Positions 6,695-31,779 of a DNA stretch of 44,789 nt are shown piece after piece. The notes beneath the pieces were generated by a model. The model did not search any database. It was given only the letters and a program-made list of their open reading frames with translations, and was not told where the DNA came from. Made by a program: the position numbers and the translations under genes. The stretch spans positions 1 to 44,789 of IMG/VR virus record IMGVR_UViG_3300010885_047103. One strand, 5' to 3'. Position 1 is the stretch's first letter; each line of letters begins with the position of its first letter. The DNA comes from a virus.

Positions 6695-7662
6695 GGCTGT
6701 CGTATAGCATCCTGCGGGGATATCAGACCTGCGAGTTCAAGGCGAAGGTTCTATCCTTCGACCGCGTCGAGGTAGAGGACACGATGCGGGACGTCACGAC
6801 GAGGATCACCGGCATCCTCGCACACGCCGGCATGGAGGGCTACCTCAAGGCCTGCCAGATTCGGCCCTTCATCGAGGCGGCGTGTTCGGAGTTCACGTTC
6901 CCCGAGGGCTTCAGTGCGGCCGATCAGGAGGCCCTGGTGGCGAAGGCGACACGCCTGGCGCAGCGGACCGTCGACTGGTTCCAGCCCACGAAGCGGTTCA
7001 AGACGGCGGTGCTCAACGGGCACCCGCTCATCGACTACAAGCTGCTCTGGGAGAAGCGGGTGGGGATCTTCGACGCCGTCGTCGCCAAGCCGGACTGGGT
7101 CTGCACCGACAAGGACGGCCTGAGCTGGATACTCGACTGGAAGTTCTCGTCGGACATGAGCGACCCCGAGATCACCCGCTACGACATCCAGGCGGCGCTC
7201 TATCAGAAGGTCCTGGCGGAGCTGGGGATGCCGGTGCGGGGCACCATCATGGTCCGGGCCCTAACCGAGGACCCCACGAAGCCGTCCGTCAACAAGGACG
7301 GCACGATGTCACGCCGGCCGATCCGCTGCTCGTGGCACGACTACCGCCAGGCGCTGCTGCAGCACGGGCTCGACCCTGGCGCGTACTCCGACATGCAAGA
7401 TAAGTTGCTGCCGTTCCACAAGGAGTACCGGAACTACCGCTCCCACGCCGAGGTCGAGGCGATCTGGGACCGTGTGGTTGTCCCCCTTGCCACCCGGATC
7501 AGTCGTGGTATAGAGGGGGGCGACGATGCGGCGTTCATTCGCAGCCTGGACTACGCGAAGTGCCGGTGGTGTGGGGTGCGGGAGGACTGTCTCGCGGGCC
7601 TTCGTGGGCAGGCCACTCACCCAGCCTACGGTTCCAACAGCCCCGTGAAGGAGGGGGAGTAG
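6691..7662 (+). CDS. PD-(D/E)XK nuclease, Cas4/RecB-like
   Basis: A 323-residue exonuclease-like protein. The N-terminus LSYSILRGYQTCEFKAKV is typical of RecB/Cas4-type nucleases. The active site is visible: a Glu/Asp region (EKRVGIFDAVVAKPDWV, about 121-133), then ILDWKFS near 146-152 with the catalytic D-x-K, and a following QAALYQKV motif. The C-terminus has CRWCGVREDC near 291-300, so with the early Cys at residue 11 it could hold an iron-sulphur cluster as in Cas4/AddB. It is followed at once by a RecA-like ATPase and an SSB-like gene, a recombination set. GTG/ATG overlap with the previous gene. Confidence 0.85.
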   Translation: MRLSYSILRGYQTCEFKAKVLSFDRVEVEDTMRDVTTRITGILAHAGMEGYLKACQIRPFIEAACSEFTFPEGFSAADQEALVAKATRLAQRTVDWFQPTKRFKTAVLNGHPLIDYKLLWEKRVGIFDAVVAKPDWVCTDKDGLSWILDWKFSSDMSDPEITRYDIQAALYQKVLAELGMPVRGTIMVRALTEDPTKPSVNKDGTMSRRPIRCSWHDYRQALLQHGLDPGAYSDMQDKLLPFHKEYRNYRSHAEVEAIWDRVVVPLATRISRGIEGGDDAAFIRSLDYAKCRWCGVREDCLAGLRGQATHPAYGSNSPVKEGE

Positions 7663-13577: not shown

Positions 13578-16500
13578 CTACATGAGGGCTTCGAGGCCGG
13601 GGATCGGGACCCCCTGGCGGACGTACCGCAAGGCCTTCCACTTGATAAGGTCCAGCTTCGGGCTGGCGTGCATCTGGATGAGCTTCCGGCGGTCAGGCGC
13701 CGAGCTTCGCTCCCACGCTCCCGTGGTCGTTACCTGCTTCGCGACGTCGTAGAGAACCCGGCCGCGGGCCTGGGCGACGACGTTCTGGTCGGCCGGCGAG
13801 AGCGGATAGGTCTTGCCGTTCACCGTGAACTGCTTCGTGTCCTGCATCGGAAGACGTAGCCCCGACTCCGCCATCGCCGTCCTGGTGGGGTTCTCGTTGA
13901 TCGGCACGATGTCGGGGTCGACCAGCGGGTTCGTCTTGTTCGTGACGACGCGGCCGGAGTTCCCGATCCGAGGCAGCACGTACTGCGTCTGCCCCGGGAG
14001 CCCGGACTGCACCGTCTGCTTCACGAGCGAGGACACCTGGCTGTAGAGCGAGTCCCCCTCCGCCTGCGGCTTGCGAACGACCGGGTCCTGATACCGGGCG
14101 AGGGCGCGCAGGCCGGCGCCAGCGGGGGTGAGGGCGTTCGTGACGCCCTGAATCCACCGCTTCCCCATCATCTCCGGGTCCTCGATGAGGTTCAGGAAGT
14201 CGTACATGTTCCGGAAGGCGCCGAGGCTCACCATGGTAGAGCCCACCCGGCCAGCTACCTCGAAAGCCCTCGCCATGTAGTCGACGGGCTTGTCCGGATT
14301 CCGCGCCTGGCGAAGGCGTGCGTCTTCGAGCGCGTCGTTGAGGTTCCCGATCGCGGACATGGGCACCGCCAGGGGCCCCAGGGCCTTGAACGGGATCGAG
14401 TACTCGTCGGACGAGGAGGGTGCGAGCCCCATCGCCCCCTGCACCGACCGCGGGATCTTCACCCGGACCGACTGGGGCAGGTTCCCGGCAGCGAGCCAGG
14501 TGTCGCGGTCGGCGGGGTCGGAGGGCCCGGCCCCGGTAATCTCGATGAGCCCGTGCATCTTGGCCGCCAGGATGGCGCCGGTGAACATCGTGCCCGCGAT
14601 CATCTCGCCCTGGAGTTGCCTGGCGGTGCGGTCCCCGGCGCGCGCCTGCTTGAACAGGATGCCGAGCGGGGTCGCCTGCACCCCCTGCTTGCCGATCGTG
14701 AGCGGGGTCTTGATGAACGTCGCGGTAACATCCCCGAGGGGCCCGAAGGCGTCCCGCATCTGCTTGACCGACCGGATCATGGGCCCGGCCGCCTCCTGGA
14801 AGACGGTCCGCTCCCCTACCTTCTGGGCCGCGCGGAGAATGTCGACCGGATTCTCCGCAACCAGCCGGGCGTACTCCTCGGCGATCTTCCCCCTGGCGGT
14901 GTGCCCGCGGCTCCCGCTCTCCAGGACCCGTCGCCGGGCCAGGTAGTAGGCGTGCCCTCGACGTGCCTGCTCGGTCGAGATCGTGCGGGCGAAGACGTCA
15001 GCCATCGCGCTCACGCGGCCGGGGGCGTTCAGAAGACCAACGATCGGGTCGGGGACCACACCGGCACCGACCTCCGGGGGTCGCATCTCCAAGTCTCCAG
15101 CGTCGAGCCCCTCGGGCGTGTAGCCCTTCAGCAGGACGTGGAGGGACTTCCGGACCGCCGGGATGATAGAGGTGGCCAGGCCCACCATCTGGGGGCTCAC
15201 CTCCCCGGCGTAGAGCTGCCGAGGGCGCCCCGTCACCGCGCTCACCGCCGCGTCGAACGGCGCCGCAGCGAGGGTGGAGACGGGCAGCCGCACGGTGTTG
15301 AGCAGGTTCGTGATGACGTTGGTTTCGTGGGTCTGGGGGTTCGAGAGCAGGTTGCTCACGATGTACCAGCGCCACAGGCCGCCCAGGCCGATCCTCCTGG
15401 CCGCCATCAGGGCGCGGAACTGGGCCGCCGGGTTGCCGGCGTTCTCCTGCATCGCGGACTGGACCTTGTCGATCGAGATCCCGGCCTGTAGGGCGCGGTC
15501 GATCATCCGCTGGTCGTGCGACGCCAGGGCCGACATCTGGTAGCGCATGAAAGCGAGCCCGCGACCCATCTCGCTGCGGACCCCGCGCATCGAGATCACG
15601 GCGTTCACCAGCTCCTGGTGGGCGAGCTTGAGCTTCAGGAGGTTGGCCGGCGAGGCCCCCTCGGGGGTCGCGCAGAGGCGGCTCAGCTCCGCCACCTTCT
15701 CCTGCAGGGCACCGACGAGGGACCCGAGGTGGGCGAGCTGGGCGTCGTTCAGGGTCGTGCCCTTCGCCAGCGGGCCGCTGCGGACCTCGGAGGTGATCTG
15801 CTCCCCGAGAGCCCGTGCACGCTCCCGGGACTGGGTGCCGCGCGTCCAGGCCTCGATGCGGTCCCGGTTGCTCTCGACGATCTGATGCAGCGCGTCACGG
15901 GCCTCCTGAGGCCTGTCCGCGTACATCCGCTCGAACGCCTCCGGAGAGAACCGGTCGTCCGGGGCCTCTCCCTGCCTTGGGAGCCCGGGCGTGTCCTCGG
16001 GAAGGGGAGAGATACGGCCGGCGTTCCTGGAGGCCTCCTGGGCCGTCCTGAGCGCGTCTGCGCTGTTTGCCGGCACCGCGCCGGCACTGCCGACCTTCGG
16101 TGCTACTTCTCGGGCAGCTTGTGCAGCCGCCGCAGCCGCCGGTCCTCCTCCTCCAGTAGCTTGCCCGTCTTGAGCCACCCCTCCCGGAGGCTTCGGCGCT
16201 CCAGCGGTGCTACCTGCTCCGCCAGGCGGAGGTGCTCCTTGTACGCCGGGTCGTCCGGCCCGGAGAACCGCGTCGGGCGCCGGCACGCCTCCCGCCACCG
16301 CGCCATCAACGCCTTGTCGGAATCCGTCGTAGACGTCCTGGGAGATTCGTCCTGCTGCATGCTCTTCCTCTAGGATTCGGAGGGCCTCGGCCCTCAGTTC
16401 ATTCTTGTCCGGGATCGGCAGAGAGTCAAGCTGGGCCTGGACCTCGGCCGCGCCCATCCGCTCGTCGCCGATGAAGCTACGGCCAGCCGAGAACTCCTCG

Positions 16501-19500
16501 TGGTCCGCGGGGCGGCCGTCGGGCCCCTCGGCCACCTTGAACAGGCTGAACCTGTACCGGGGGTCCTGCATGAAGTGCGCGAGCCGATCCTTGGCGCTCG
16601 CCAGGGCCCCGATGTGTCCGCTCACGAAGGCGTCGACCGGGACGGTCCTCCCGTTGGTCATCGCCCGGTGCAGGGCCCCCCTGAACGACGCGATGGGGTC
16701 CCGCCAGGTGAAGCTGTCGGTGACATACCAGCCCTTCGCCAGGGCCTGGGTCATCATCCGGATGGCGTTCTTCGCGGTCTTCATGGTGCCGTCCCAGACG
16801 TAGCCGGCACCCTGCACGTCCATGAGGCGCTCCCTGGCGGCCGTCTTGCCGGCGCCGGGCCCTCCCCCCGTGAACCCGAACTCCTGGTCCCCGTGTCCTC
16901 CCTCGTTGACGATGTCGTTGAAGCGGCGGTCCATCAGGGCCGCGACGTCCTCGTGGATCACGGCCGCGTACTTCCAGGGCTCCTTGACGTACCGGGGGTC
17001 CAGCTCGCGCGCGAGGTCGGCGTCGAGGACGCGCCCTCCGCGGCTGCTCGGGAGCTTCGCGTAAGCGTCCACGTCGGCGCGGTAGTTGGCCCCGACCCGG
17101 TGCGGACCCTTCGCTCCCCAACCGGCCGCCCGGTAGGAGCTGAACGCGCCTCCGAGCAGGTCCCAACCTCGCTGCCACGCCTTGCTGAGGTACGGCCGGA
17201 TGGACGGGCCGAACTCCAGGAGGGCCGAGCGCGACCACTCCTTGAACCGCCGCGACCCCTTCGCGATGGCGCCGGCAGCGATGACCGGGAGCTGGCCGAA
17301 GATGTCAGGCCGCATCGCGCCACGCTGGCCTCGCCCGCGCTTCCCCGGGAGCTGCTTCGGGGTCGTCTTGGCCTCCACGGCGGGGGTCACCCGCGATCCG
17401 GACACCAGGGCCTGAATCTCCCCCATCTGGCGCTGGAAGTGCCAGTCGCCCGACTCCCAGGGAGGCTTGATCCCCTCGGTACCGCGGACCTCACCGATGC
17501 GCCAGGGGTTGGGGTTCCCCTCGACGAACCCGGCGGGCAGCTTTCCGAAGTTGGGGTTGGGCACCTTGATCTTGCGCGGCTTCCCCTTGGCGTCGACCGC
17601 CCCGCTCGGGTCGTTGATGCTGATCTCCCTCTTGGAATCTCGGAGGAAGTCGTACGACTTCACGGGGAAGAGGGATGGGTGAGCGAGGATGGTAGAAAGC
17701 TCGGTGGGAGACAGCTCGGTACCCTGGGTGGTCGCGCCCTTCTCGATCGCGGCGCGGACCATGTCCTTGCCGGCCTCCTTCAGCCGGCCGCCTTCGAACC
17801 CGCGCATCCAGAGCCCGGCCTCGTACAGCTCCTGGGGGCTCAGGGTTGCCCGGATGGCGGTGTGCAGCTCTTCGGCAGCGCGCCCCGACTCCCGGGAGAA
17901 CAGTTGCACCACACGGTCAGTGACCTCGTCGGGGATCTGAAGGCGCTGCGCCACCAGCTCGCCGTACCCGCGGAACGGCATGTTGCCGACCCGGTGGAGC
18001 CCCACCCAGTTCATCGCGAACCTGTCGCGTGGGTTGATCCCCGTCTGGTACGCCAGGTCGCGGATGATGGCTTCGGCGATCCGGTACTCGGCGTCGCCCT
18101 GCGGGGCGTCCCCAGGCATCCCGAGCATGTGCCGCCACTCGAACACGTCCACGGTCACGGCGTTCTCGTCACCGAGCGCGTTGCGCTGGAAGTGCCGGGT
18201 CTTGAGCCCGCCGAACGCGCCCCAGGGGCCCTCGGTCAGCAGGTTCTCGACGTTGGCCTGGCGGGACGGGAACCCTCCTCCGGCGATCTTCGCGACCTCG
18301 GCCGGATCGACCCCGGCCTTCCACGCGAGGTAGCCTTCGAGCCCGAGGTTCGTGTTCATGTGGAGGTCCGCCCGGGTGCTCGTGGCGGACATGAATCCGA
18401 GCAGCCAGGGGATGTCTTCCTTCGGCACCCCGAGCCGCTCGAACATCGGGCCAGTCTTCGAGAACCACTGGCGCCCGGCCTCACCGGCGTTGGACACCGC
18501 GAACCGTTCGAACTCACGCAGCTCTGGTGCGCTGCGCGCCGCACGGGAGAAGAAGTCGGCGAAGTCCCTCTGTCCCTCGTCCCAGAGGCGGTCCATCATC
18601 GTGTCGTAGACCTTGGCCCCGGCCGCCTGCTCTTTCTTGGTGGGCTTCTGCGGCTTCTTCAGGACGTCGAGGGCGTCGCCGAAGTCCTCCCGCATCCTGG
18701 CCTCCCAGGAGGCGCGATCGGGGAAGAACGCCATGTGCCCGGAGCCGACGCTTCGCAGAGCGTTCACCAGCTTCGTCTGCTGGCCGTGCTGCCGGAGCAT
18801 GAGGGCGGTATCCCAGATCGTGGTGGGATCGAGGCCGGCAACGGCGGCGTTCAGCGTCCCGCGCTTCTCTGCCGCCTGGCGTCGTGCCTCGGCGATCCGC
18901 TTGAGCCGAGCGACCGTGGTGTAGATCTCGTCCCGGGCGCTCATCGACTTGGCGAAGAGCCCGCCAAGGGGGCCACCCATGGTGGCGTCAGCCAGGGCCT
19001 CGGCCTCGTCGATCTTGATCGGCTTGCCGTCTCCTCCGGTCGGGATCTCCTCCATCTTGTGGAGGTTGAAGATCGCCTCCTGGTTGTACTTCCTGCCAAG
19101 GTAGATGGCATGGGCCTTCGATCGTGGCGTCGCCACGATGTCCAGGACCCACGCCCCCCTACCCTCGTGCCACCAGGTGCCGACCCCGAGCCGGCCCTTC
19201 CCCTTGCTGAGGATGTCCTGGTTCCTGGCGATGTAGTTGGCGATGACCTCCGGCTTCAGGTCCTCCTTCGGTCCCACCACATCGAGGCTTCGCTCGGGGA
19301 AGATGGAGACGGCGAATCGCCGGTGGCCAGCCATGTTCCCGCCACGGGTCGGGTTGTAGGTCGCCCCACCGTGCTGATGTGATAGTTCGGCAATCTCCTC
19401 ACCGAACTGCTTGCGCTCCAGGTTCCAGCGACGAGGGTCGCGCCCCGCCCTGTTCACGCGGGCGTCGTGCACGGCGCCTGGCGCCTCGAAGACGCCACTG

Positions 19501-20204
19501 AAGCCAACGCCGAGGGCGAAGGCGAACTTCGCTCCGGTGAGCGCCTCCTCCTGGGTGAGCAGGGCCTCGCGGAGCGGGCGCTTGTCCCACAGGGTGTTCG
19601 AGAGCTTCTCGCCCTGCTGCTGGCCCCAGTTCATCGCCACGGCTTCGGTGCCGCGTACGGCGAGTCGCTTGGCCACCTCCCCGACGGCCGAGTAGCCCGG
19701 GATGAGATGGGTGCCGGGCATGACGTCGAACGGGAACTGGATCGCCGTCTTCGTAATCGTCTTTTCCAGGCCCTTGGGGTCCTCCTGGATGTTGCCGGCG
19801 TTCGCGAGGTACTCGGTGGTGTTCCAGCCGATCCCGACCGCGCCGGCCGCCATGGGGCCGCCCATGAGCCCGGCGGAGAGCATCGCCATCGTCCGGGGCC
19901 CGCCCACGTCGATGAACTTCTGGGTGAGGGGGTGGTTCGCGGTGGTCTGCTTCGCCCCTTCGAGCCACTCCCCAAACCTGTCCTCCGGCGGAGCCTTCGG
20001 GCGCGTCAGGAATGGGTCGAAGTCGGGGGGCGGAGGTACGACCTTCGGCGGCTCGATGATGGTCAGGGGAGCGTCGCGGTCGTAGGTCCAGCTCCTACCT
20101 GCCCCGGCCCCGCTGAATCCTGAGCCCCCTGGGGTCGAGATGGGGAAGCCGCCCTGGTCTAGGCCGACGTTGGGGCCGTACAGCTCCTCGATGGTCCGCG
20201 CCAT
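13578..20204 (-). CDS. giant 2,208-residue polyvalent internal/ejected virion protein
   Basis: By far the largest gene. N-terminal Pro-rich segment (1-75); a hydrophobic region near 105-135; a mixed alpha/beta domain about 285-392 (MAGHRRFAVSIFPERS ... NLHKMEEIPTGG); a helical domain about 590-790 with WLLGFMSATSTRADLHMN and later TVDVFEWRHMLG, like glycosylase-type domains of phage polyproteins; a zeta-toxin-like P-loop domain about 1085-1245 with GGGPGAGKT at 1113-1121; a Gly/Ala/Pro-rich linker about 1290-1400 that covers a nested frame; and a C-terminal region (about 1605-2150) with SNLLSNPQTHETNVITNLLNT and IKTPLTIGK, like polyvalent-protein domain LPD38. Position after tail fibres and before lysis genes, and domain mix, suggest it is packaged and injected. 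Domain names are from memory. Confidence 0.8.
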   Translation of the reverse strand: MARTIEELYGPNVGLDQGGFPISTPGGSGFSGAGAGRSWTYDRDAPLTIIEPPKVVPPPPDFDPFLTRPKAPPEDRFGEWLEGAKQTTANHPLTQKFIDVGGPRTMAMLSAGLMGGPMAAGAVGIGWNTTEYLANAGNIQEDPKGLEKTITKTAIQFPFDVMPGTHLIPGYSAVGEVAKRLAVRGTEAVAMNWGQQQGEKLSNTLWDKRPLREALLTQEEALTGAKFAFALGVGFSGVFEAPGAVHDARVNRAGRDPRRWNLERKQFGEEIAELSHQHGGATYNPTRGGNMAGHRRFAVSIFPERSLDVVGPKEDLKPEVIANYIARNQDILSKGKGRLGVGTWWHEGRGAWVLDIVATPRSKAHAIYLGRKYNQEAIFNLHKMEEIPTGGDGKPIKIDEAEALADATMGGPLGGLFAKSMSARDEIYTTVARLKRIAEARRQAAEKRGTLNAAVAGLDPTTIWDTALMLRQHGQQTKLVNALRSVGSGHMAFFPDRASWEARMREDFGDALDVLKKPQKPTKKEQAAGAKVYDTMMDRLWDEGQRDFADFFSRAARSAPELREFERFAVSNAGEAGRQWFSKTGPMFERLGVPKEDIPWLLGFMSATSTRADLHMNTNLGLEGYLAWKAGVDPAEVAKIAGGGFPSRQANVENLLTEGPWGAFGGLKTRHFQRNALGDENAVTVDVFEWRHMLGMPGDAPQGDAEYRIAEAIIRDLAYQTGINPRDRFAMNWVGLHRVGNMPFRGYGELVAQRLQIPDEVTDRVVQLFSRESGRAAEELHTAIRATLSPQELYEAGLWMRGFEGGRLKEAGKDMVRAAIEKGATTQGTELSPTELSTILAHPSLFPVKSYDFLRDSKREISINDPSGAVDAKGKPRKIKVPNPNFGKLPAGFVEGNPNPWRIGEVRGTEGIKPPWESGDWHFQRQMGEIQALVSGSRVTPAVEAKTTPKQLPGKRGRGQRGAMRPDIFGQLPVIAAGAIAKGSRRFKEWSRSALLEFGPSIRPYLSKAWQRGWDLLGGAFSSYRAAGWGAKGPHRVGANYRADVDAYAKLPSSRGGRVLDADLARELDPRYVKEPWKYAAVIHEDVAALMDRRFNDIVNEGGHGDQEFGFTGGGPGAGKTAARERLMDVQGAGYVWDGTMKTAKNAIRMMTQALAKGWYVTDSFTWRDPIASFRGALHRAMTNGRTVPVDAFVSGHIGALASAKDRLAHFMQDPRYRFSLFKVAEGPDGRPADHEEFSAGRSFIGDERMGAAEVQAQLDSLPIPDKNELRAEALRILEEEHAAGRISQDVYDGFRQGVDGAVAGGVPAPDAVLRAGRPGVQGAPPPGGAGSTAGAPKPPGGVAQDGQATGGGGPAAAAAAQAAREVAPKVGSAGAVPANSADALRTAQEASRNAGRISPLPEDTPGLPRQGEAPDDRFSPEAFERMYADRPQEARDALHQIVESNRDRIEAWTRGTQSRERARALGEQITSEVRSGPLAKGTTLNDAQLAHLGSLVGALQEKVAELSRLCATPEGASPANLLKLKLAHQELVNAVISMRGVRSEMGRGLAFMRYQMSALASHDQRMIDRALQAGISIDKVQSAMQENAGNPAAQFRALMAARRIGLGGLWRWYIVSNLLSNPQTHETNVITNLLNTVRLPVSTLAAAPFDAAVSAVTGRPRQLYAGEVSPQMVGLATSIIPAVRKSLHVLLKGYTPEGLDAGDLEMRPPEVGAGVVPDPIVGLLNAPGRVSAMADVFARTISTEQARRGHAYYLARRRVLESGSRGHTARGKIAEEYARLVAENPVDILRAAQKVGERTVFQEAAGPMIRSVKQMRDAFGPLGDVTATFIKTPLTIGKQGVQATPLGILFKQARAGDRTARQLQGEMIAGTMFTGAILAAKMHGLIEITGAGPSDPADRDTWLAAGNLPQSVRVKIPRSVQGAMGLAPSSSDEYSIPFKALGPLAVPMSAIGNLNDALEDARLRQARNPDKPVDYMARAFEVAGRVGSTMVSLGAFRNMYDFLNLIEDPEMMGKRWIQGVTNALTPAGAGLRALARYQDPVVRKPQAEGDSLYSQVSSLVKQTVQSGLPGQTQYVLPRIGNSGRVVTNKTNPLVDPDIVPINENPTRTAMAESGLRLPMQDTKQFTVNGKTYPLSPADQNVVAQARGRVLYDVAKQVTTTGAWERSSAPDRRKLIQMHASPKLDLIKWKALRYVRQGVPIPGLEALM
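16103..16360 (-). CDS. nested overprinted gene inside the giant protein gene
   Basis: An 85-codon frame lying wholly inside the 2,208-codon gene in another reading frame of the same strand. ATG 16360 has an SD-like AGAGGAAGAGC just upstream and the frame ends in TAG. By hand count about 90% of its third codon positions are G or C, as in ordinary genes here, whereas the giant frame over the same bases falls to about half and encodes a Gly/Ala/Pro-rich linker. The product is highly charged and helical (MARWREACRRPTRFSGPDD, YKEHLRLAEQVAPLERRSL, LLEEEDRRLRRLHKLPEK). It sits about 40 codons after the zeta-like domain. Alternative: two compensating frameshifts. Function unknown. Confidence 0.55.
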   Translation of the reverse strand: MQQDESPRTSTTDSDKALMARWREACRRPTRFSGPDDPAYKEHLRLAEQVAPLERRSLREGWLKTGKLLEEEDRRLRRLHKLPEK

Positions 20205-22494: not shown

Positions 22495-23286
22495 TTACTG
22501 GTAGCCTCCCACGAGGGTCGCGCTGAGGTGCGGTGAGTAGTTCTGACTCTTGTTGATCGTCACGGTGGCGTTGCTGTCCTGCTGGACGACCAGCTCAATG
22601 GTGGCACCCGCCGCGCAGTCGATGATCGAGAACCCGTTCTGGCAGATGGTTCCGTCGGCGGCGGTGGCGAGCGCAGGGACCGTCTGCACCGACTCGATGA
22701 CCCCGCCCGACCCGTTCTTCCGGATCGCGCAGACCCGGTACCCGGCCGTCCCTCCGCCAGTCCCCCACTCGATGCCGAACTCGACTACGTAGAGCCCCTT
22801 CTGCACGATCGTGATGAGCCCGGAAGGGGTGCTCCCGCCGCCGAGGGCCCACATCGTGGGGTAGTTGTAGTCGGCGGTGTCGAACGTGACGACGGTCCAG
22901 TCGGCGTCGGACGCGGTGAACGGGATGGTCTTCGCCTTCGTCGCGATCGTCTGTGCAGCCGCGGTCACGAGCCGAAGGTGAACGTGGGGCACCCGGATCA
23001 CCGGGTAGGTCTGGGTCGTGTACCAGTAGGTCGGGTCGGTGTCGACGTTCAGGTACCGCCCGAGCTGCTTGATCCGGTACCGGAGCCGCTCCAGCTCGCC
23101 CGCCAGGGTGGTCGACAGGGCGCCAGCAGGGTCGGTCACCGTCTGGAACTCCGCCGCGTTGGAGGAGTAGTCGTCGATGACCGACGGCTTCATGTTGTCG
23201 ATGTGGTTCTGGTGGTCGCCGTTGTAGATCGTGGCCGTGAGGGTCGTTCCCGCGGCCCTGGTCACATGGCTGTAGCTCGCTCCCAT
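22495..23286 (-). CDS. tail fibre / receptor-binding protein with C1q-like jelly roll
   Basis: A 263-residue protein whose gene directly follows a late promoter box. Residues 1-40 (THVTRAAGTTLTATIYNGDHQNHIDNM in part) are a recurrent phage fibre N-terminus that attaches to the tail or head. The C-terminal 150 residues are beta-rich with patterns of a C1q/TNF-like jelly roll (FDTADYNYPTMWALGG, GLITIVQKGLYVVEFGIEW, YRVCAIRKNGSGG, IELVVQQDSNATVTI). Likely a trimer at the particle surface that binds the host. ATG 23286 has GAGGATA as SD. Confidence 0.65.
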   Translation of the reverse strand: MGASYSHVTRAAGTTLTATIYNGDHQNHIDNMKPSVIDDYSSNAAEFQTVTDPAGALSTTLAGELERLRYRIKQLGRYLNVDTDPTYWYTTQTYPVIRVPHVHLRLVTAAAQTIATKAKTIPFTASDADWTVVTFDTADYNYPTMWALGGGSTPSGLITIVQKGLYVVEFGIEWGTGGGTAGYRVCAIRKNGSGGVIESVQTVPALATAADGTICQNGFSIIDCAAGATIELVVQQDSNATVTINKSQNYSPHLSATLVGGYQ

Positions 23287-30837: not shown

Positions 30838-31779
30838 TTACGCCGAGGTCACCCGAACGATGCGGGCCTCACCCGCGTTCGACGTGTCCCAGATGATCCC
30901 GAACGCCAGGATGCCGTACCAGGCGACCGCCTTCGAGCGACCGAAATCCTGGGGAATGGCTGCGCGCAGCTCGGGGGTGAGGACCTCCGCCAGGGCGACG
31001 GAGTCCTGGCCGAAGAACACGCACTCGCCGAGGACGCTGGAGGTGCCGACCTTGCCGAGGGCGTTGTTGTGGTTGGTCTGGATGAAGCGGACGCCCTCCA
31101 GGCGGCCGACCTCGCCGTTGGCCTTGACCTCGGGCGTGTTGTACTTCTTCCACTCCTCCCACGTCGGGTCGCGCTTGATGCCGCGGAGCGCCAGGGTGCG
31201 GCAGATCGCGACGTAGTCGTCGCCCGACCACTTCGGCACGCGGAGCGTGTCCCACATGTAGTCGGCGATCTCCTCGACGTGGAACACGTTGAGGTTCGCG
31301 GTCGCGGTGTAGGACGGCGAGCCGTCCGTGTCCCACACGCCCGACGCCGCGGTGTACGGGGTGTAGATGATCTTCGCGGTCTTGAAGGCCGCCGCGCAGG
31401 CGGTGTCGAGGACCAGCTTCTGCTGCTCCTTGAGGCGCTGCTGGATCGGGTTCTCGATGTCGAACTCGGAGAGGTCCTCGGAGAGCGAGGTGAACGGCAC
31501 GGCGCGCCCGTACTCGCTGACCGTGATCGAGGTCGTGCTGAGCGCGAACGTGTCCTCGGGGATGCGCGTCGTCTCGGTGATGGTCGCCGAGCTGGGCTCC
31601 GCGATCGTGGGGAGGCGCACCAGGGTGACCGTCTCACCCTTCTTCTTGCCGAAGCCATCGACGGGACGAGCGAACTCGACGAACTGACTGTCCTCGATGC
31701 TCTTCTCGTAGAGGTGCTTCGACATCGCGTGCGACTTGTAGACGCCCGACGGGGCATCGTACGTCCAGGTGAACGGCAT
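30838..31779 (-). CDS. major capsid protein, N4 gp56-like
   Basis: A 313-residue protein from ATG 31779 (SD AGGAGTACACTCCC). YDAPSGVYKSHAMSKHLYEKSIEDSQF, then GFGKKKGETVTLVRLP (near 45-60) and TETTRIPEDTFALSTTSITVSEYGRAVPFT (near 68-97) are typical of the N4-gp56 family of HK97-fold capsid proteins, as is FHVEEIADYMWDTL followed by DYVAICRTLALRGIK. No N-terminal delta domain is present; a separate scaffold gene lies immediately upstream. It should be the most abundant virion protein. Confidence 0.88.
   Translation of the reverse strand: MPFTWTYDAPSGVYKSHAMSKHLYEKSIEDSQFVEFARPVDGFGKKKGETVTLVRLPTIAEPSSATITETTRIPEDTFALSTTSITVSEYGRAVPFTSLSEDLSEFDIENPIQQRLKEQQKLVLDTACAAAFKTAKIIYTPYTAASGVWDTDGSPSYTATANLNVFHVEEIADYMWDTLRVPKWSGDDYVAICRTLALRGIKRDPTWEEWKKYNTPEVKANGEVGRLEGVRFIQTNHNNALGKVGTSSVLGECVFFGQDSVALAEVLTPELRAAIPQDFGRSKAVAWYGILAFGIIWDTSNAGEARIVRVTSA

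Follow-up and report, generated by a model that had tools for sequence, protein, structure and literature searches.

A small gene nested out of frame behind the zeta kinase module of a giant phage protein, and its probable counterparts at other zeta loci

The stretch of DNA studied here, IMG/VR record IMGVR_UViG_3300010885_047103, is a viral sequence of 44,789 bases with 67.6% G+C (hereafter the window). Its minus strand carries a giant gene of 2208 codons, within which a short second frame is open in the +1 register. A preliminary description, made from the sequence alone, had reported an 85-codon frame with a Shine-Dalgarno sequence (SD), an ATG and a TAG inside the giant gene, and the coordinates, strand and length given there proved exact. 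The features of the locus are as follows:

13578..20204, minus strand: giant gene of 2208 codons, an unbroken frame with normal codon-position G+C on either side of the nested gene
16308..17102, minus strand: zeta-toxin-like kinase module, about residues 1035-1299 of the giant protein, with the P-loop GGGPGAGKT
16364..16371, minus strand: SD of the nested gene, AGAGGAAG, also given as TAGAGGAAGAGCATG, located from the sequence
16103..16360, minus strand: nested small gene in the +1 frame, with an ATG, an SD and a TAG at 16103-16105; 85 codons, product P0001 of 85 residues
16308..16360, minus strand: dual-coding stretch, read in the giant frame as the close of the zeta module (..AAGRISQDVYDGFRQGV) and in the nested frame as the N-terminal ~17 residues of the small protein; delimited by zeta homology, an AlphaFold2 (AF2) model, the family profile and G+C at third codon positions (GC3)
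16106..16307, minus strand: Gly/Ala/Pro-rich linker of the giant protein, encoded by the giant frame as it is read through the nested gene; delimited by translation and codon-position G+C

The AGGA of the SD is spaced 5 nucleotides (nt) from the ATG, and the nested frame is closed upstream by an in-frame TAG (16370-16372), which overlaps the SD and lies 9 nt before the ATG.

The domain that precedes the linker had been called zeta-toxin-like in the preliminary description, and this identification can be made more precise: sequence profile and predicted fold place it among the zeta kinases, in the gonococcal zeta1 subclass. The zeta family profile (A4) matches the 6EPH zeta_1 toxin with an E value of 2.7e-25, the match reaching the last helix. 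An AF2 model of the window module (predicted local distance difference test, pLDDT, 90.8) has as its best PDB folds in Foldseek 6EPH, 6EPG and 6EPI, gonococcal epsilon1/zeta1 (template-modelling, TM, score 0.79), with further matches to 1GVN, PezT and, more weakly, AvrRxo1 (4Z8Q). The P-loop residues G80, G81, G85 and K86 are invariant in the family, together with D104 and R152. The window module matches that of a relative (L049) with 84 bits in phmmer; against Pfam Zeta_toxin it stays below threshold (17.8 of 22.3 bits), whereas its relatives pass. The giant-frame residues at the nested ATG (..EEHAAGRISQDVYDGF) are kept in zeta homologues and predicted as a confident helix, and AF2 helix 255-262 lies over the dual-coding stretch with a pLDDT of ~96. 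The first ~50 nt of the nested gene are dual-coding, as the conserved last zeta helices extend into them in the giant frame. The Gly/Ala/Pro linker that had been placed under the whole nested gene thus holds for 16106..16307, but not for these first ~50 nt.

The codon composition of the nested gene is that of a protein-coding gene. Its G+C at the three codon positions is 0.70/0.49/0.91, compared with 0.68/0.50/0.89 in normal genes of the same genome; read in the giant frame, these bases give 0.91/0.70/0.49. The codon-usage log-odds are +17 for the nested frame and −16.5 for the giant frame. The two estimates made earlier by hand, about half G/C at giant-frame third positions and about 90% at those of the nested frame, are both reproduced, but they do not weigh equally as evidence. 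As a null model, we resampled the synonymous codons of the giant-frame peptide 20,000 times with the phage's own codon usage. The resampled sequences leave the nested frame open with P 0.80 and give it a mean GC3 of 0.896, so that its openness and high GC3, which the Gly/Ala/Pro peptide imposes by itself, are uninformative and were rejected as evidence for a gene. The GC3 of the giant frame, on the other hand, is 0.488 across the nested gene against 0.887 ± 0.034 expected, and none of the 20,000 resamplings is as low (minimum 0.709); the lowest value in 255-nt windows of the other scored genes of the genome is 0.765. The depression sets in at the nested ATG and ends at the nested TAG, being present both in the first 51 nt (0.53 versus 0.90 expected, 0/3000) and in the remainder (0.485 versus 0.88 expected). 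Something besides the giant protein has chosen these third positions, each of which is at the same time the second position of a nested codon.

The preliminary description had itself named, as a possible refutation, two compensating indels that would make the giant protein normal here. Such indels could be natural or introduced in assembly, and the start codon and SD would then be due to chance. An in-frame ATG with an SD and an open frame is indeed not rare given the giant peptide (P 0.10). However, over the first ~50 nt of the nested ORF (open reading frame) the giant frame still reads as a conserved zeta helix, so the first indel would have to follow this helix, yet GC3 is low from the ATG onwards; the arrangement is also met again in contigs, plasmids and genomes that are independent of one another, as described below. 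We reject the indel model on the conserved dual-coding helix and consider an artefact extremely improbable, and 16103-16360 on the minus strand is almost certainly a real small gene.

Other zeta loci were collected with a motif scan followed by an alignment scan, which gave 99 loci of this zeta subclass. With MW202577, an annotated phage record, and the window itself also taken in, the sample, drawn from phages and bacterial genomes, comprised 48 non-redundant zeta modules. In 47 of these 48 loci the +1 frame holds an ORF, no shorter than 35 codons, that begins close to the last helices and extends over the boundary of the module; in the one exception the contig ends 42 codons past the module. 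These small ORFs span 39-85 codons (median 57, the window's 85 being joint longest) and start at a median of −62 nt relative to the module end. Homologues with an intact linker and no nested frame would have spoken against the gene. We found the opposite: the zeta relatives whose frame reads on into a linker also have the +1 ORF. The window gene, with its ATG, its AGGA at 5 nt and its +1-frame start in the last helices at −50 nt, very probably represents the same arrangement.

ORFs of comparable size occur in the +1 frame at control positions too (11-19 of 48), but an ATG together with an SD is found on the small ORF at 34 of the 48 loci, whereas the four control positions give counts of 0, 0, 0 and 1. 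The offset to zeta is always +1, with no ORF of the same kind in frame +2 (0/48), as might be expected if ribosomes reached this frame mainly by frameshifting and so gave the zeta protein an alternative C-terminus. Such a route is made very unlikely by the conserved start signals, an SD-like site being present at the corresponding place in 42 of 47 loci, and, in the window, by the in-frame TAG just before the ATG.

At 21 loci the zeta frame stops soon after the module, so the small gene only overlaps it, whereas at 26, including the window, the small gene is fully nested in a zeta frame that reads on. Nested loci have a G+C of 0.63, versus 0.50. On a quick zeta tree the nested or overlapping state switches at least five times; the window forms a very long branch with no firm place. 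The 25 other nested loci repeat the codon signature of the window, with a GC3 of 0.82 for the small frame, 0.44 for the zeta frame where it covers these bases and 0.73 for the zeta module, and the zeta frame regains normal GC3 beyond the small-gene stop. Eight of the loci (L057, L059, L060, L062, L069, L072, L096 and L104) share a similar zeta-frame tail of ~60 residues after the nested gene (..NPDLVIRMEDG..AVACFLSRG). Selection was measured solely in the part of the small genes that lies beyond the zeta stop: in 23 independent pairs the ratio of nonsynonymous to synonymous differences per site (pN/pS) is 0.18, with 38, 19 and 108 substitutions at codon positions 1, 2 and 3. The small genes are under purifying selection there.

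The small ORF follows the zeta module in stand-alone phage genes, in polyvalent fusions, on plasmids and in a chromosomal zeta gene beside an integrase. In the polyvalent hosts of the nested gene, zeta is combined with LPD38, LPD22, ddrB-ParB or ART-PolyVal domains. The chromosomal case (L144, 4884-5814) comes from an Acidobacteriaceae chromosome, where the zeta gene and its +1 small gene have host genes (MutS, AnmK) on one side and the integrase on the other; a zeta match is found patchily in this family, in 4 of 300 genomes, and the locus looks like a mobile unit of the toxin-antitoxin type. The arrangement was replicated in bacterial genomes and plasmids searched afterwards, where six loci (L156, L160, L163, L166, L167 and L168) show a +1 ORF of 63-73 codons that has an ATG and an SD and is wholly or almost wholly nested; their products are mutually homologous and have a common C-terminal motif, M..DEEYR..AKR.F. 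Two others (L161, L164) match part of the zeta profile only and were left uncounted. At a further locus, L162 (1091-2619), the zeta1-type gene has 399 codons and is overlapped on its upstream side by an ORF of 113 codons, where epsilon classically lies; downstream of zeta no +1 ORF has a start signal. None of the three annotated records inspected (MW202577, NZ_CP039696 and NZ_CP117473) lists the small gene. In MW202577.1 (L052) the zeta gene is annotated as 'thymidylate kinase', and an unannotated +1 ORF of 40 codons at 6695-6814 carries the family motif (VQGLNQATKK).

The small products form a family, most of them scoring 18-62 bits in leave-one-out searches, and are predicted to consist of a disordered N-terminus and one long helix. 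The family has no match in Pfam, PHROGs, NCBIfam, PADLOC or PDB sequences. The N-terminal S-x-K-P-S-T that the small proteins share is no evidence of kinship, because the zeta frame imposes it.

Zeta1-class toxins phosphorylate peptidoglycan precursors and require an inhibitor. In the account that we favour for the locus, the nested gene has start signals of its own, an SD and an ATG, placed within the last zeta helices, and its +1 frame continues through the Gly/Ala/Pro linker. Ribosomes on the message of the giant protein would reinitiate at the internal SD, so that both products would be made together; the small protein may then bind and inhibit the zeta kinase in the manner of an antitoxin, keeping it in check up to the delivery of the zeta protein or the loss of its partner. 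A cognate inhibitor is favoured because the small gene accompanies the zeta module across contexts and because reinitiation would yield both products. This conserved association likewise favours the idea, raised in the preliminary description, of a product that might modulate the zeta domain. The partner reading also draws on L162, which has an ORF at the epsilon position in place of the +1 gene, on the loose likeness of the predicted small proteins to ng_epsilon1, and on AvrRxo1:Arc1 as a precedent for an antitoxin gene behind a zeta-like toxin. As in epsilon/zeta systems, a small partner gene stands beside zeta (at 47 of 48 loci), here downstream and not upstream. We would give even weight to the small gene being, by analogy, the cognate inhibitor or antitoxin of the zeta domain, and to its not being so. 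Taken as a whole, a real gene in a zeta-linked arrangement that encodes a co-made kinase inhibitor appears the best explanation, and a somewhat probable one. More tentatively, and with rather less expectation of being right, we suggest that zeta1-class kinases on phages, plasmids and islands carry their antitoxin out of frame in the end of the toxin module, where it stays nested in the linker when the module is fused, so that a shuffled toxin never loses its immunity gene.

Several results weigh against this explanation. The small protein resembles no known antitoxin, including epsilon, PezA and Arc1, in the libraries named above, and a distribution complementary to that of epsilon rests on one locus (L162). 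Close nested pairs show no purifying selection in the small frame: the only regular one, L078/L082, has there a pN of 0.081 versus a pS of 0.084, and a second nested pair, L135/L137, whose members are doubtful, has a ratio of 1.18. The giant and nested genes of the window have no close relatives in INPHARED or IMG/VR, and the selection figures come from other loci. The window product scores 3.5 bits against the profile of the phage small proteins, which 85 of 2000 shuffles equal, and 0.6 bits, at chance level, against that of the plasmid small proteins; hhalign aligns just 12 of its residues, which the zeta frame imposes, and it does not have the common C-terminal helix motif [LIM]N / NL[KRN]. 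As it has no detectable family sequence, we regard it as a positional counterpart and not as a proven member of the family.

A different candidate for the antitoxin is a conserved small protein of ~70 residues (ending ..FDGGRSKGVCYTHDRKSYQK), whose gene precedes the stand-alone zeta gene in one phage lineage (L063, L066, L067, L081, L103, L106 and L129); it was set aside, being absent from other stand-alone zeta loci.

The small gene could also be real and translationally coupled to the giant gene but have a job that is unrelated to zeta, for example in the virion, as a scaffold or in regulation, its position reflecting shared ancestry or packing. The lack of antitoxin homology and the very different sequence of the window product would suit this reading, and in many phages the zeta region lies within a structural module, with a terminase near the zeta locus L081 and an ejection-like domain in the window:

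13683..15857, minus strand: C-terminal region of the giant protein resembling internal virion protein D (ejection protein), by phmmer and tblastn

The C-terminal half of the giant protein resembles internal virion protein D of Pelagibacter autographiviruses (phmmer) and also longer IMG/VR proteins, with a tblastn match to L032 at an E value of 6e-30; the giant protein is probably virion-associated. What argues against a role apart from zeta is that the small ORF tracks zeta through unrelated contexts, namely stand-alone genes, varied polyvalent fusions, plasmids and a chromosomal gene outside any virion module, and we consider such a role unlikely, though to be taken seriously.

When the giant protein was checked for features of polyvalent proteins, we found the zeta module, a sub-threshold DUF7178 and the similarity to internal virion protein D; the relatives are clearly polyvalent. 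Hits to AKAP2_C, phrog_27872, Microviridae and NEDD1 in the various searches were rejected as chance-level. The major capsid protein of the window (30838-31779) is 54-78% identical to those of IMG/VR phages L002-L017, in which the downstream tail and ejection genes diverge fast despite the capsid similarity. In the 47-kb capsid relative G003 other proteins follow the tail genes, with no detectable match to the giant gene, and the remaining capsid-linked relatives are fragments; these records are therefore no test of the nested gene. The N-terminal ~90 residues encoded at 22495-23286 match two places each in several relatives (L005, L008 and L009), as if a tail-attachment domain had been duplicated.

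To our knowledge, there are few documented cases of conserved genes nested out of frame within genes of prokaryotes or phages, and annotation pipelines are apt to pass over them. Here one nested arrangement recurs across phages, plasmids and chromosomes, at well over 50 loci. If its product inhibits zeta, this would explain how giant zeta-bearing phage proteins are made without a premature halt of cell-wall synthesis, and toxin module and immunity gene would be physically inseparable. We found no report of an overlapping or nested small gene behind zeta in the open-access literature, most subscription journals lying outside this scope, and the wider arrangement has apparently not been described before.

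Among known systems, the N. gonorrhoeae epsilon1/zeta1 pair (6EPG/6EPH/6EPI) is the closest for the zeta module, by profile and by fold along its whole length. The antitoxin ng_epsilon1 is a small, extended, non-globular chain that binds ng_zeta1 over the ATP site (PMC5923241), and the disordered tail and long helix predicted for the small proteins are loosely like it. In contrast, the gonococcal pair forms a bicistronic operon with epsilon upstream, as far as the order can be taken from the cloning primers (PMC11964940), whereas here the small gene follows zeta, which it overlaps or is nested in, and is read in the +1 frame; we found no sequence similarity between the small proteins. In AvrRxo1:Arc1 a zeta-like toxin gene is followed by the antitoxin ORF, with an overlap not mentioned (PMC4938570). 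The likeness consists in the zeta-like fold (4Z8Q) and in a small partner gene downstream of the toxin, but AvrRxo1 belongs to a different zeta subclass and no sequence similarity was found between Arc1 and the small protein. The internal virion protein D of autographiviruses shares the C-terminal part with the giant protein, but it has no annotated zeta module and the giant protein is ~1000 residues longer. Iyer et al. 2017 (PMC5512222) described polyvalent proteins with zeta-like kinase domains in phages and conjugative elements; the main text of that paper mentions no small or overlapping partner gene, and several of the hosts of nested genes found here are polyvalent proteins, as in that work.
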